A DNA stretch of 35,495 nucleotides from Methylococcales bacterium (GTDB taxonomy: Bacteria > Pseudomonadota > Gammaproteobacteria > Methylococcales > Methylomonadaceae), in contig JAPLRP010000088.1 of assembly GCA_026399095.1 (NCBI GenBank), positions 1 through 35,495 of the forward strand, read 5' to 3'. This document shows, one piece after another, positions 5,721 through 9,451 of the stretch. Within the stretch, counting starts at the first letter, position 1. Every line of letters begins with the position of its first letter. Under the pieces are notes generated by a model. The model did not search any database. It was not told where the DNA came from and was given only the letters and a program-made list of their open reading frames with translations. The position numbers were made by a program, and so were the translations under genes.

Positions 5721-6155
5721 CTACTTTTTGTTTTCAATGTCACTATCTTCCGGACAGCCGTAGTTTTTGGCTGTGTAAGACAAGATCAAGATGGCAACAC
5801 TGAGTAGAGCAATAGCGACGGTTATGCTCAGCAGCAAATAAAGATGGAAGCTATCTGCTACTTTTTGAACATCAATAACTAAATGTCGTGATAATGCAGT
5901 AATAGCGATATAAATTAGAAATTGTACAGGCAAGCGGCGCGTTTTAAAATAAGTACCCACCATAGCGCCTAATTCGAGATAGATAAACAATAACAGTATC
6001 TCTTCCAGATTGGCGTGGCCTGTCTTCATCATTTCAATATAATCATGAATTGCCGACCAAACGATGGTCGCACCTATTCCAAATAGCGCGAGATAGTGAA
6101 AGCTATCGACCAATATATCGCCGAATTTGTGAATTAGAACAGTTTTATTTTGCAT
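5721..6155 (-). CDS. PsiE-family (phosphate-starvation-inducible) membrane protein
   Basis: This 144-residue protein has four predicted membrane helices (roughly residues 17-37, 48-67, 75-92 and 102-125). It carries the family pattern LFIYLELGAMVGTYF followed by PVQFLIYIAITALSRHLVID. PsiE proteins are widespread and their biochemical role is unknown. It starts 15 bases after the stop of the CydX-GGDEF gene, so it is probably the last cistron of the cyd operon. No clear ribosome site is seen before its ATG, which fits translation coupled to the upstream gene. The family call is fairly sure; a link to respiration rests on position only. Confidence 0.8.
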   Translation of the reverse strand: MQNKTVLIHKFGDILVDSFHYLALFGIGATIVWSAIHDYIEMMKTGHANLEEILLLFIYLELGAMVGTYFKTRRLPVQFLIYIAITALSRHLVIDVQKVADSFHLYLLLSITVAIALLSVAILILSYTAKNYGCPEDSDIENKK

Positions 6156-6170
6156 TGATATTAGTATTAA

Positions 6171-6743
6171 TTAAATCTGGAACGCCTTTTCTGTTGCAAT
6201 GCTGATTAATTTATCAACTTCATCAGCGGTAGTAGCCAATATTTCTGATTGAGTGGAGTATTCAGCAACACCGGTTGTCACTTCAACAGTTAAGCCTTTG
6301 GGTGTTTTTACGCGTTCTGAAATCGCATTTTTAACCCGAAGAGCTATTTCTTCTGCTTTTTTTAAGTGAGAACCCGGCATGGCAATAATAAATCCGTTTT
6401 CTTCCATTCTTGCAGCAAGATCAACGCCGACTCTAATATCTTCTTTGAAACAATCAACCACGTTTCGTAAGATGGCATCCATTTCAAAAGCCGCAATACT
6501 ATTATTGGATTTAAAATCTTTTAAACTGATAAAAAGAACAGAAAAAGGAAAGCCGTTGCGTTTAGAGTTTTCAACTTTTTCCTTTAAACGACCAACCATT
6601 GTTTCTTTGGTCATTAATTGGGTTAACGGATCTAAAAAGACGTGTTCTTTATCCCATGTCTCCTGTGCTTCCAGTCTTAGCACGTTCATAATGCCTAATG
6701 AGCAGGCCAATAATAATCCAAGTATCCAAGTAAAATACCACAT
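6171..6743 (-). CDS. CydX-like cytochrome bd small subunit fused to a degenerate GGDEF domain
   Basis: The first ~28 residues (MWYFTWILGLLLACSLGIMN, then VLRLE) are a full CydX/YbgT sequence. The invariant MWYF.WILG start and a Glu at position 25 match E. coli CydX, a 37-residue subunit that stabilises the haems of cytochrome bd-I. Instead of ending there, the frame continues into a GGDEF-type domain (~36-190). DPLTQL (38-43), FISLKDFK (71-78) and the late TVEVTTGVAEY strand are recognisable. The catalytic signature is EENGF (114-118) in place of GGDEF, and the metal-binding Asp in the FISLKDFK strand is Ser, so diguanylate cyclase activity is unlikely. No canonical RxxD inhibitory site is present. 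The gene starts 9 bases after cydB, with AGGAG overlapping the cydB stop. Confidence 0.85.
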   Translation of the reverse strand: MWYFTWILGLLLACSLGIMNVLRLEAQETWDKEHVFLDPLTQLMTKETMVGRLKEKVENSKRNGFPFSVLFISLKDFKSNNSIAAFEMDAILRNVVDCFKEDIRVGVDLAARMEENGFIIAMPGSHLKKAEEIALRVKNAISERVKTPKGLTVEVTTGVAEYSTQSEILATTADEVDKLISIATEKAFQI

Positions 6744-6752
6744 AGCAATCTC

Positions 6753-7892
6753 CTAATAGGCTGTATGATCGTTTTGATGAATGTGTTCCAGTGTTATTTT
6801 GCCGCGCAAAATCCGGAATACCCAAGTAGTATAAGTAATAACAATAGGTAAAAAAATCAGGGTAACCCAGAACATGATTTTTAAGGTAGCAAGACTGGAA
6901 CTGGCGTCCCATATTGTTAAAGAGCTGTTCATAACAGAGCTCGAAGGTATCAGAAAAGGAAACATGGATACGCCGGCGGTTAAAATAACAGCAGCTAATG
7001 TTAATGAACTACTGATAAATGCCAAGCCAGGACGCTCAATTTTTGAAAGTAAAATGGTTGCAATGCCTGAAACAAAAGCCAGGCAGGGTATTGCCAATAA
7101 CACAGGGCAATTATAATAATTGGCAAGCCATAATCCTGTTTGTTTGTTGACTATTTTTGCAAGTGGATTGGATTGTGCATTAGGTAAAACTTCAGAGCTA
7201 ATATGGTAACCATCAATATTGGCAACCCATACACCAGCGAGAGCAAAAACGACGAGTGTTAAGGCTGAAAAAATAGTCACGGTTTTTTTACATCGTTTAT
7301 TTATATCGCCCACCGTCTTGATTTGTAAAAAAACAGCACCATGCATAATGATCATCGACAAACTAACCACTCCTGCAGCTAGTGAGAAAGGGTTTAGTAA
7401 AGCCCAGAATGAACCCGTATAAAAAATACGCATATCGTTGTCAAAGTGAAATGGCACACCTTTTAACAAATTGCCAAAGGCCACGCCAAAAATTAACGCT
7501 GGAACAAGTCCCCCTACAAATAAGGCAATATCCCAGTTGCTACGCCATTGTTGACTGGGTAATTTACTGCGGTAATCAAAGCCTATCGGTCTTAAAAATA
7601 ACGCAAACAAGGTTAATAATAAGGCGAAATAAAATCCTGAAAATGCCACGGAATAGGCGACTGGCCAAGCAGCGAATAAAGCGCCACCAGCGGTAACAAA
7701 CCAAACCTGATTGCCTTCCCAAGTAGCGCCTACAGAGTTGATGATCACACGACGTTCGGTATCATTTTTGCCTAAAAAAGGTAGCAAGATGGCGACACCT
7801 AAATCAAAACCGCCGGTAATGGCAAAGCCTATTAGTAGTGCGCCTAATAGACCCCACCAGATCAAGCGCATGGTTTCATAATCAAAAATCAT
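6753..7892 (-). CDS. cydB: Cytochrome bd ubiquinol oxidase subunit II
   Basis: The 379-residue protein has the length and start (MIFDYETMRLIWWGLLGALL) of CydB. It also has the family segment TWEGNQVWFVTAGGALFAAWP near residues 55-75 and about nine hydrophobic helices. CydB is the structural partner of CydA in the quinol-oxidising bd complex, which reduces oxygen to water in the inner membrane without pumping protons. Its ATG overlaps the cydA stop by four bases (ATGA), so the two are translationally coupled. The CydX-GGDEF gene follows at once. Confidence 0.96.
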   Translation of the reverse strand: MIFDYETMRLIWWGLLGALLIGFAITGGFDLGVAILLPFLGKNDTERRVIINSVGATWEGNQVWFVTAGGALFAAWPVAYSVAFSGFYFALLLTLFALFLRPIGFDYRSKLPSQQWRSNWDIALFVGGLVPALIFGVAFGNLLKGVPFHFDNDMRIFYTGSFWALLNPFSLAAGVVSLSMIIMHGAVFLQIKTVGDINKRCKKTVTIFSALTLVVFALAGVWVANIDGYHISSEVLPNAQSNPLAKIVNKQTGLWLANYYNCPVLLAIPCLAFVSGIATILLSKIERPGLAFISSSLTLAAVILTAGVSMFPFLIPSSSVMNSSLTIWDASSSLATLKIMFWVTLIFLPIVITYTTWVFRILRGKITLEHIHQNDHTAY

Positions 7893-9451
7893 AATGCATC
7901 TCCTGTAGCTATTTCAAAATGGTAGCGACCCTTATGCAGGCTGCTGGGGCCTAATTTAATAAATTTAAGCATTAAGAACATTTCAATAACCAAAAATACG
8001 GTATATAAACTGATATAGCCAGCCAGACTTAGGTATAAATCCAGTTCGGTTAAGGATGAGGCGCTTAAAAAAGTAGGTAATATCTCGGCAATTGTCCAAG
8101 GTTGACGACCAAATTCAGCGACGAACCAACCCATTTCACATGCAATCCAGGGTAAGGGCATCATATAAAGACTGGCTCGTAATAACCAGTTTTGTCGGCA
8201 TTTTCTAATTGAGCTGGCAATAACTGCAAAAACAAATATCCCCAGCATAATAAAGCCACAAACCACCATAATCCGAAAGGTCCAGAATAAGGGTACGACT
8301 CTGGGTAAGGAGCTTTTGGCGGCCATTTCTATTTGCTGATCAGTGGCATCAACAACTTTGTCTGTATAGCGCTTTAGTAACAGACCATAGCCTAGGTCTT
8401 GCTTGTAGAGGTTAAATTCAGCAATAGTCGCCTCATTCTTGTTGCCCGCTCTTAATGATTGTAGTGCTGTGTAAGCTTTTATACCCTCACGTACACGTAA
8501 ACGATTTTTTTCTAGAATCTCAGATAATCCGGTAATTGGAGTATCAATAGAGCGTGTTCCAATCAAGCCCAATACCCAAGGAATTTTTACAGCATAACGG
8601 GTTTCCATCGTTTCCTGATCAGGGATGCCTATAAGAGTAAATGAGGCCGGTGGGGGTTCAGTGTGCCATTCGGCTTCAATAGCCGCAAGCTTGGCTTTTT
8701 GTACTTCGCCATCGGTATAGCCACTTTCATCACCCAAGACTATGACGGAAAGAACGGCGGCCAAGCCAAAGCCGGCGGCAATGGTATAAGAGCGTTGTGC
8801 AAAAGCGGCATCACGCCCTTTCAGCATGTAATAAGCGCTGATGCCCAGAACAAAAGCAGAGGCAGTGGTGTAACCGGCGGCAACAGTATGGACAAACTTA
8901 ACTTGGGCAGAAGGGTTAAATAATAACGAACCAAAGCTTGAAAGCTCCATACGCATCGTTTCAAAATTAAAATCCGCCCCCACCGGATTTTGCATCCAAC
9001 CGTTAGCGATTAAAATCCATAAGGCAGATAAATTGGTTCCTAAGGCAACCAACCACGTTACCAGCAAATGTGAACCTTTACCCATTTTATCCCAGCCAAA
9101 GAAAAACAGACCGACAAAGGTAGATTCCAGAAAAAATGCCATCAAGCCTTCAATGGCTAGCGGTGCTCCAAAAATATCACCGACATAATGTGAAAAATAA
9201 GACCAGTTCATGCCGAATTGAAATTCCATCGTTAAGCCGGTGGTGACGCCTAATGCAAAATTTATTCCGAATAATTTCCCCCAGAACTGGGTCATATCCT
9301 TGTATATTTCCTTACCGGTCATGACGTAGGTCGATTCCATAATCGCCAGTAAAAACGATAAGCCTAATGTTAACGGAACAAACAGAAAATGATATAAGGA
9401 TGTTGCAGCAAACTGCCAGCGTGATAAATCAACCATGGATTCTGAAATCAT
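7889..9451 (-). CDS. cydA: Cytochrome bd ubiquinol oxidase subunit I
   Basis: This 520-residue protein is CydA. It has the N-terminal SLYHFLFVPLTLG segment with haem d ligand His21, KFVHTVAAGY with the His equivalent to E. coli His186, the FRIMV segment with the haem b558 Met, and the diagnostic EFGRQPW motif. The length and long central loop (~240-390) fit the long-Q-loop type found in E. coli. The enzyme oxidises quinol with very high oxygen affinity and tolerates sulfide and cyanide better than haem-copper oxidases do. It is the first gene of cydA-cydB-cydX::GGDEF-psiE. ATG 9451 has a GGGGA site five bases upstream; Met6 (9436) is a possible alternative start. Confidence 0.96.
   Translation of the reverse strand: MISESMVDLSRWQFAATSLYHFLFVPLTLGLSFLLAIMESTYVMTGKEIYKDMTQFWGKLFGINFALGVTTGLTMEFQFGMNWSYFSHYVGDIFGAPLAIEGLMAFFLESTFVGLFFFGWDKMGKGSHLLVTWLVALGTNLSALWILIANGWMQNPVGADFNFETMRMELSSFGSLLFNPSAQVKFVHTVAAGYTTASAFVLGISAYYMLKGRDAAFAQRSYTIAAGFGLAAVLSVIVLGDESGYTDGEVQKAKLAAIEAEWHTEPPPASFTLIGIPDQETMETRYAVKIPWVLGLIGTRSIDTPITGLSEILEKNRLRVREGIKAYTALQSLRAGNKNEATIAEFNLYKQDLGYGLLLKRYTDKVVDATDQQIEMAAKSSLPRVVPLFWTFRIMVVCGFIMLGIFVFAVIASSIRKCRQNWLLRASLYMMPLPWIACEMGWFVAEFGRQPWTIAEILPTFLSASSLTELDLYLSLAGYISLYTVFLVIEMFLMLKFIKLGPSSLHKGRYHFEIATGDAL

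Follow-up and report, generated by a model that had tools for sequence, protein, structure and literature searches.

The window, that is the whole stretch of 35,495 nucleotides analysed in this work, hosts on its minus strand a cytochrome bd operon in which cydA (7889..9451, PF01654) is followed by cydB (6753..7892, TIGR00203 / PF02322), and cydB in turn by a gene (6171..6743) in which the small subunit CydX is fused to a GGDEF-like domain. The fusion ORF runs from an ATG at 6743 down to 6171, and its translation yields 190 aa plus the stop without any break; the plus strand of 6171-6743 holds 16 stops, and the fusion frame is that of the minus strand. The one chain is matched by PF08173 at residues 1-27 (E 2.8e-14, 53.3 bits against a curated cut-off of 26.2), by the CydX model TIGR02106 (47.2 bits, cut-off 31.6), and by PF00990 at residues 36-178 (E 7e-16, 58.8 bits, cut-off 23.8). 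Three segments can be told apart, all on the minus strand. The CydX part (residues 1-27, 6663..6743), delimited by PF08173, by alignment with chain 6rko_X and by column identity, is a transmembrane helix opening with MWYFTWILG and carrying Glu25. The linker (residues 28-37, 6633..6662), delimited by the model and the gap-free alignment, prolongs the membrane helix, which spans residues 2-33 in the model. The remainder (residues 38-190, 6174..6632) is a pseudo-GGDEF domain with a DPLT start, Ser73, RVGVD at 104-108 and EENGF at 114-118, recognized by PF00990, the AlphaFold model, Foldseek and residue counts. The next gene downstream of the fusion encodes a psiE-like membrane protein (5721..6155, minus strand, PF06146). 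PsiE-like genes are neighbours at many loci, not all, and adjoin fused and free cydX alike (L149, L150, L164).

The first-pass annotation had read in this DNA a full CydX running without interruption into a GGDEF-like domain, in the operon position of cydX behind cydAB, with EENGF replacing the GGDEF signature and Ser replacing the metal Asp. All of this is borne out, and the loss of both residue features extends to every one of the 64 distinct fusion proteins collected, the one encoded in the window included. Only 9 nt separate the end of cydB from the fusion start. Among the 63 distinct fusions whose locus includes cydB, 62 have a spacing of 8-15 nt and one (L068) of 65 nt; no cydB is seen at one further locus, L065. 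A separate cydX in the absence of relatives of the fusion would have refuted the annotation. Neither holds, since the window's own genome (98.43% complete) has a single PF08173 match, the fusion itself, and the fusion has relatives in a methanotroph lineage, being carried by 64 distinct proteins with that of the window. The same genome has a single CydA (PF01654) match, in the fusion operon. An assembly or frameshift artefact can be ruled out, because the same junction recurs in 64 proteins, in records not labelled as metagenome-assembled genomes (MAGs; L038, L050, L057), and twice in the single-contig genome G019. A cytochrome bd-I carrying a CydX-pseudoGGDEF subunit is real and conserved; its function is unproven.

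Residues 1-28 of the 64 fusion proteins have a mean column identity of 0.96, and the CydX part aligns with residues 1-29 of E. coli CydX (6rko_X). No alignment gap is found in residues 1-78 in any of the proteins, and the spacing between membrane helix and domain is therefore fixed. The fusion shares with CydX/YbgT of E. coli bd-I (TIGR02106, PF08173) the full CydX sequence, the position after cydAB and Glu25. However, E. coli CydX is a free chain of 37 residues, and the methanotroph protein adds in frame a domain of about 150 residues; with 190 aa and no intervening stop, the window protein does not qualify as a free small protein. CydX is reported to be necessary for assembly and activity of the E. 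coli oxidase (PMC6853902, PMC8951039), and described as mainly structural (PMC8951039).

The GGDEF part looks enzymatically dead throughout the family, as far as can be judged from residue identities. Fusions were compared with 30 controls, one ordinary GGDEF domain from each of 30 genomes in the window's genus; being the best matches returned, these are biased towards canonical GGDEF. The metal Asp (residue 73) is present in all controls and in none of the 64 fusions, where Ser (52) or Asn (12) is found instead. The GG(D/E)EF motif is missing in all fusions, and present in 29 of the 30 controls (GGDEF in 22, GGEEF in 7, SGEEF in the remaining one); Gly at 115 occurs in 0/64 fusions versus 30/30 controls. 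The second Asp of DxD, and the glycines and histidine of GHxxGD, are largely lost in the fusions. One protein (L120) has a chance GGE in its C-terminal tail. The inhibitory site (I-site) is altered as well. The RxxD signature preceding the motif is found in 27 of 30 controls and in no fusion, all 64 of which have RxxxD. R104 and D108 are invariant; position 105 is variable, position 107 less so. D108 is also conserved in 29 of 30 controls, and may therefore be structural. The usual I-site Arg falls in column 105 in 28 of 30 controls, and R104 may simply be that Arg displaced by the extra residue. The column aligned with another I-site Arg (PleD R390) is mixed in the fusions, featuring Q in 25, R in 23, K in 10, and other residues in the rest. 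By profile and fold the window protein belongs to the PF00990 superfamily; it lacks both the GG(D/E)EF motif and the metal Asp expected of an active diguanylate cyclase, and the RxxD I-site expected of a CdgI-type protein.

The AlphaFold model, built on the 64-row alignment (mean pLDDT 80.0, pTM 0.64), predicts a single helix (residues 2-33) followed by a GGDEF fold, for which the best solved Foldseek matches are diguanylate cyclases, namely 5llx (E 5.6e-13), SiaD (7e6g), WspR and PleD. The likeness to such PF00990 enzymes lies in the fold and in the DxLT start; in contrast to them, all fusions have lost the metal Asp, the GG pair and the RxxD spacing of the I-site. In the E. coli bd-I cryo-EM structure the C-terminus of CydX is exposed on the cytoplasmic side (PMC6853902), whereas a periplasmic prediction is cited in older work (PMC5322542). 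Here the structure was followed over the earlier prediction. Since the E. coli C-terminus is cytoplasmic, the pseudo-GGDEF domain should sit in the cytoplasm, which for the methanotroph protein is an inference.

A total of 104 fusion loci correspond to 65 distinct proteins, reduced to 64 by dropping a broken one (L072, 75 aa); one fusion cut by a contig end (L022) was kept. Distinct proteins were counted because some genomes were fetched by two routes, and loci are thus not independent. A profile (A1) made from the 64 fusions was searched at E 1e-27 against 311 genomes of the order, representing 50 genera. The 69 matching genomes fall in 15 genera. In 67 of them, from 14 genera, the match spans residue 1 to at least residue 163, and hence both parts; the fifteenth genus, g9, is represented by a fragment only (G308, residues 57-168), and in G305 the profile is matched but the fusion is broken. 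For four genomes (G280, G302, G303, G306) the profile match alone was considered, and the sequences were not read. When the window protein itself served as query, 145 of 151 related genomes matched at E 0.001, mostly through ordinary GGDEF proteins, and in 42 of the 151, by manual count, the match began at residue 1 and extended to residue 163 or beyond. At the level of the phylum, no fusion was found at E 1e-24 in the 397 genomes other than the window's own (398 drawn in all). At the level of the class, 309 of 369 genomes, own included, matched at E 0.001, nearly all via ordinary GGDEF stretches; at most 8 candidates were scored per genome and, among the matches listed, only the window's own starts at residue 1. 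In nine other listed matches (G311, G327, G331, G366, G371, G478, G502, G585, G643) the alignment begins at profile positions 5-12; their frames measure 330-700 aa, and none has an E value better than 3e-22. We take them, without inspection, for a membrane helix preceding a GGDEF domain.

A contig scan revealed, among the best 80 loci listed, at least 40 fusion loci (L033-L072). Their titles refer to Methylococcales, Methylococcaceae, Methylobacter or Methylomonas, with two exceptions. L066 is titled 'Gammaproteobacteria bacterium'; L065, a contig of 3,007 bases carrying a methanotroph-like fusion, is attributed to an uncultured 'Epsilonproteobacteria', and has perhaps been mis-binned. Named carriers include Methylobacter tundripaludum SV96 (L057), M. 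tundripaludum OWC-G53F (L038) and Ca. Methylobacter oryzae KRF1 (L050). One PF08173 match is found in 66 of the 67 genomes with a full-length fusion, and two, both fusions, in G019; therefore no free CydX was found beside a fused one. The two G019 copies, equal in score, lie far apart on the single contig (C1:1818148-1818708 and 3143763-3144323, the latter corresponding to L014). At L072 (L072:5001-5986) the CydX part is intact, but the GGDEF part is broken after about residue 65, and its 3' portion occurs twice in separate frames. The same broken state is found at G305:C58:56486-57462, probably in the same MAG. This may be a natural loss of a domain dispensable there, or a misassembly. Other candidates were discarded. 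L073, from Alteromonas, was listed as matching residues 1-169, and is a free 37-aa CydX with a separate ORF behind it, ABC transporter-like by reading only. Long stop-to-stop frames (151-189 aa) at PF08173 matches in G207, G218, G227, G229, G232 and G237 overlap the end of cydB, and no GGDEF match is present in frame at the six loci (L153-L158).

The fusion travels with its oxidase. A CydB tree, made by a quick method, included 119 rows, 62 from fused loci, counting the broken L072, and 57 from free ones, and the fused/free label changes only 2 times on it, versus a mean of 40 when labels are shuffled. Four members of the genus endowed with free CydX (G001, G003, G010, G026) carry a different bd oxidase, the CydB of which is 50-51% identical to that of the window. 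Constraining the fusions to one clade gave a log-likelihood 10.8 higher than that of the free tree (p-AU 0.674); a single origin is thus not rejected, nor is it proven. An exception is L107, a long branch with a free 37-aa CydX on the fusion side. No GGDEF match was found in its flank, and none of the ORFs listed behind cydX is GGDEF-like by reading.

The domain is not decaying. For residues 34-188 the median dN/dS was 0.184 and the maximum 0.378 over 190 pairs with dS between 0.15 and 1.0, and no pair exceeded 0.5; pairs are not independent. The GGDEF part evolves faster than CydX residues 1-33 (median 0.02, 189 pairs), and is under purifying selection all the same. Twenty positions set the family apart, in that 85% or more of the 64 fusions keep them and no more than 30% of the 30 controls share them (P39, E55, K56, N59, S60, N63, G64, F67, S68, E87, I103, R104, G106, G124, E131, I141, P148, A160, E161, V176). 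Eight of them cluster at 55-68, in or just after the first helix, and three at 103-106. These positions were assessed in the linear sequence and not on the model surface; moreover, shared ancestry by itself would produce part of such a pattern, because the controls are a mixture of paralogues.

An apparently dead GGDEF domain, attached to CydX and preserved by selection, points to a respiratory complex that has its own module for docking or control. The first-pass annotation had imagined a regulatory or docking module; the idea is still an inference, and we lean to docking or dimerization over sensing, because the RxxD spacing is lost in all fusions, and because the nearly complete genome G008 has no other GGDEF match. 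In the model proposed, the short cytoplasmic tail of CydX in a bd-I type quinol oxidase would have been swapped, probably once, for a GGDEF domain in a methanotroph lineage, and the acquired domain would have then lost catalysis, to be refitted as a protein-binding module. As inferred from E. coli, CydX would lie on CydA and clamp it, with its C-terminal end in the cytoplasm; since the CydX helix would lead straight into the domain, the pseudo-GGDEF would be kept at constant distance below CydAB on its cytoplasmic side. A conserved face, formed by helix 1 (E55, K56, N59, S60, N63) with a possible contribution of the RxG turn (R104, G106), may make a fixed protein contact. Its counterpart could be the oxidase itself, a second oxidase's pseudo-GGDEF within a bd dimer, or some cytoplasmic protein. 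The contact would stabilise or organise the complex, and no c-di-GMP would be made. In one structure bd-II is mostly a dimer, joined through AppX, the homologue of CydX (PMC8951039), which makes oxidase dimerization a concrete version of the docking model. No partner has been identified; that the domain serves cytochrome bd-I as a cytoplasmic module for docking or dimerization, without catalysis, is inferred, and we consider it the most likely reading, with middling confidence. The invariance of R104 and D108 would also be explained by a modified nucleotide site, and the further GGDEF proteins encoded in other fusion genomes of the genus speak against docking, as do the broken copy at L072/G305 and the domain's faster evolution relative to CydX.

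Alternatively, a remodelled site of the inhibitory type may let the pseudo-GGDEF bind c-di-GMP (or GTP or (p)ppGpp) and tune the activity or the stability of the oxidase to the signalling state. R104 and D108, kept in every fusion while residue 105 and, to a lesser degree, 107 vary, would fit such a sensor; CdgI offers the precedent of a degenerate GGDEF protein that binds c-di-GMP and retains an intact I-site (PMC5635695), and two PDB entries (9g85, 9g86) concern, by their titles, PleD with (p)ppGpp. Yet the spacing of the I-site is not preserved, D108 is kept in controls as well, and the column aligned with PleD R390 is mixed. The signalling background cuts both ways. GGDEF matches range from 1 to 32 in the 35 genomes of the window's genus, the fusion being counted where present, and 33 of them have 3 to 32, which counts in favour of a sensor. 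At variance with this, no GGDEF match besides the fusion was detected at E up to 1 in G008 (99% complete, 300 contigs), nor in the assembled part of G014 (84% complete), though R104 and D108 are retained in the fusions of both (L196, L197). Each has one weak EAL match (2.7e-6 in G008, 2.0e-5 in G014); HD-GYP was outside the search. In these two genomes c-di-GMP from GGDEF enzymes is perhaps absent. G008, having no other GGDEF, weighs against c-di-GMP sensing as a general role, and the evidence from the pair is unfavourable to it, not fatal. All considered, we judge the sensor unlikely, without discarding it.

A third possibility is that the pseudo-GGDEF forms heterodimers with canonical GGDEF proteins, acting as a decoy or tether through which the oxidase reports the state of respiration to c-di-GMP signalling. 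PdeK and CdgI, two of seven degenerate GGDEF domains of E. coli, engage in multiple strong heteromeric GGDEF contacts (PMC5635695), and the range of 1 to 32 GGDEF matches in genomes of the genus also speaks for it. In G008, and in the assembled part of G014, no GGDEF partner was found; moreover, nothing observed links the family-specific positions to the face of GGDEF-GGDEF contacts. We regard this possibility as improbable. Still less credit can be given to the notion that an accidental fusion has been tolerated as a passive solubility or assembly tail, with the CydX part still working: the MAG with intact CydX and broken GGDEF part (L072/G305) and the faster evolution of the domain are in its favour, but the absence of relaxed pairs in the dN/dS analysis, the 20 family-specific positions and the occurrence of complete fusions in 14 of the order's 50 genera speak against it. 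That the oxidase carries a working diguanylate cyclase, for which only the fold can be invoked, along with one enzyme described as active with AGDEF (PMC3974145), can practically be dismissed, given that metal Asp and Gly115 are lacking in all 64 fusions and that the second Asp of DxD and the Gly and His residues of GHxxGD are largely lost.

Whether it works by docking or otherwise, the exchange of the CydX tail for a refitted signalling domain makes the cytoplasmic organisation or gating of a terminal oxidase directly testable. The named carriers are methanotrophs, a group in which the bd oxidase is considered to sustain respiration when oxygen is very scarce (PMC11218250, PMC12810054). It is conceivable, though we would not count on it, that this bd-I has a built-in control domain, gating low-oxygen respiration either by nucleotide sensing through the rebuilt RxGxD or by driving dimers or larger assemblies. 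Were this true, we know of no terminal oxidase before it in which a domain that stems from c-di-GMP signalling is an integral part.

No description of a CydX-GGDEF fusion was found in the open-access literature, most subscription papers being outside the scope of the search. A broader set of listed matches includes, in titles and beginnings of abstracts, nothing on the fusion. The listed co-mentions of CydX and GGDEF concern genomes of Azotobacter, transcriptomes of Klebsiella and a gene of a Vibrio prophage. The words fusion, fused, GGDEF and Methylo are all absent from a study on CydX conservation (PMC4325964). A paper on Methylospira mobilis deals with cydAB copies and GGDEF counts separately, without mention of cydX (PMC6956133). 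A 2025 survey of Methylobacter genomes reports cydAB(X) with two or three subunits, and GGDEF, diguanylate and cydX do not appear in that text (PMC12810054). We infer that a survey looking for cydX as a small gene of its own would count it as absent, or label the fusion a diguanylate cyclase.

Known proteins resemble the fusion in single respects. CdgI, CsrD, PdeR and PdeK of E. coli, and FimX, have a GGDEF fold without an intact active site and are engaged in protein contacts or ligand binding (PMC5635695). FimX was among the structure matches of the pseudo-GGDEF search; CdgI keeps an intact I-site, unlike the CydX-pseudoGGDEF family. We know of no member of this set serving as subunit of a respiratory enzyme. 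Chimaeric proteins including a bd subunit have been published, but they involve another subunit and another partner, occur without a cydB gene, and are not proper bd oxidases in the opinion of their authors. An ammonium transporter chain (PDB 8qj3, 8qj4, 8qpf) combines in one chain a membrane transport protein and a C-terminal GGDEF match; it is a transporter, whereas the CydX fusion is an oxidase subunit. As to L107, its free cydX is followed (L107:3110-4965) by a 64-aa cysteine-containing protein and two ORFs which, by reading only, resemble a ferredoxin-domain P-loop ATPase, odd surroundings for a bd operon.
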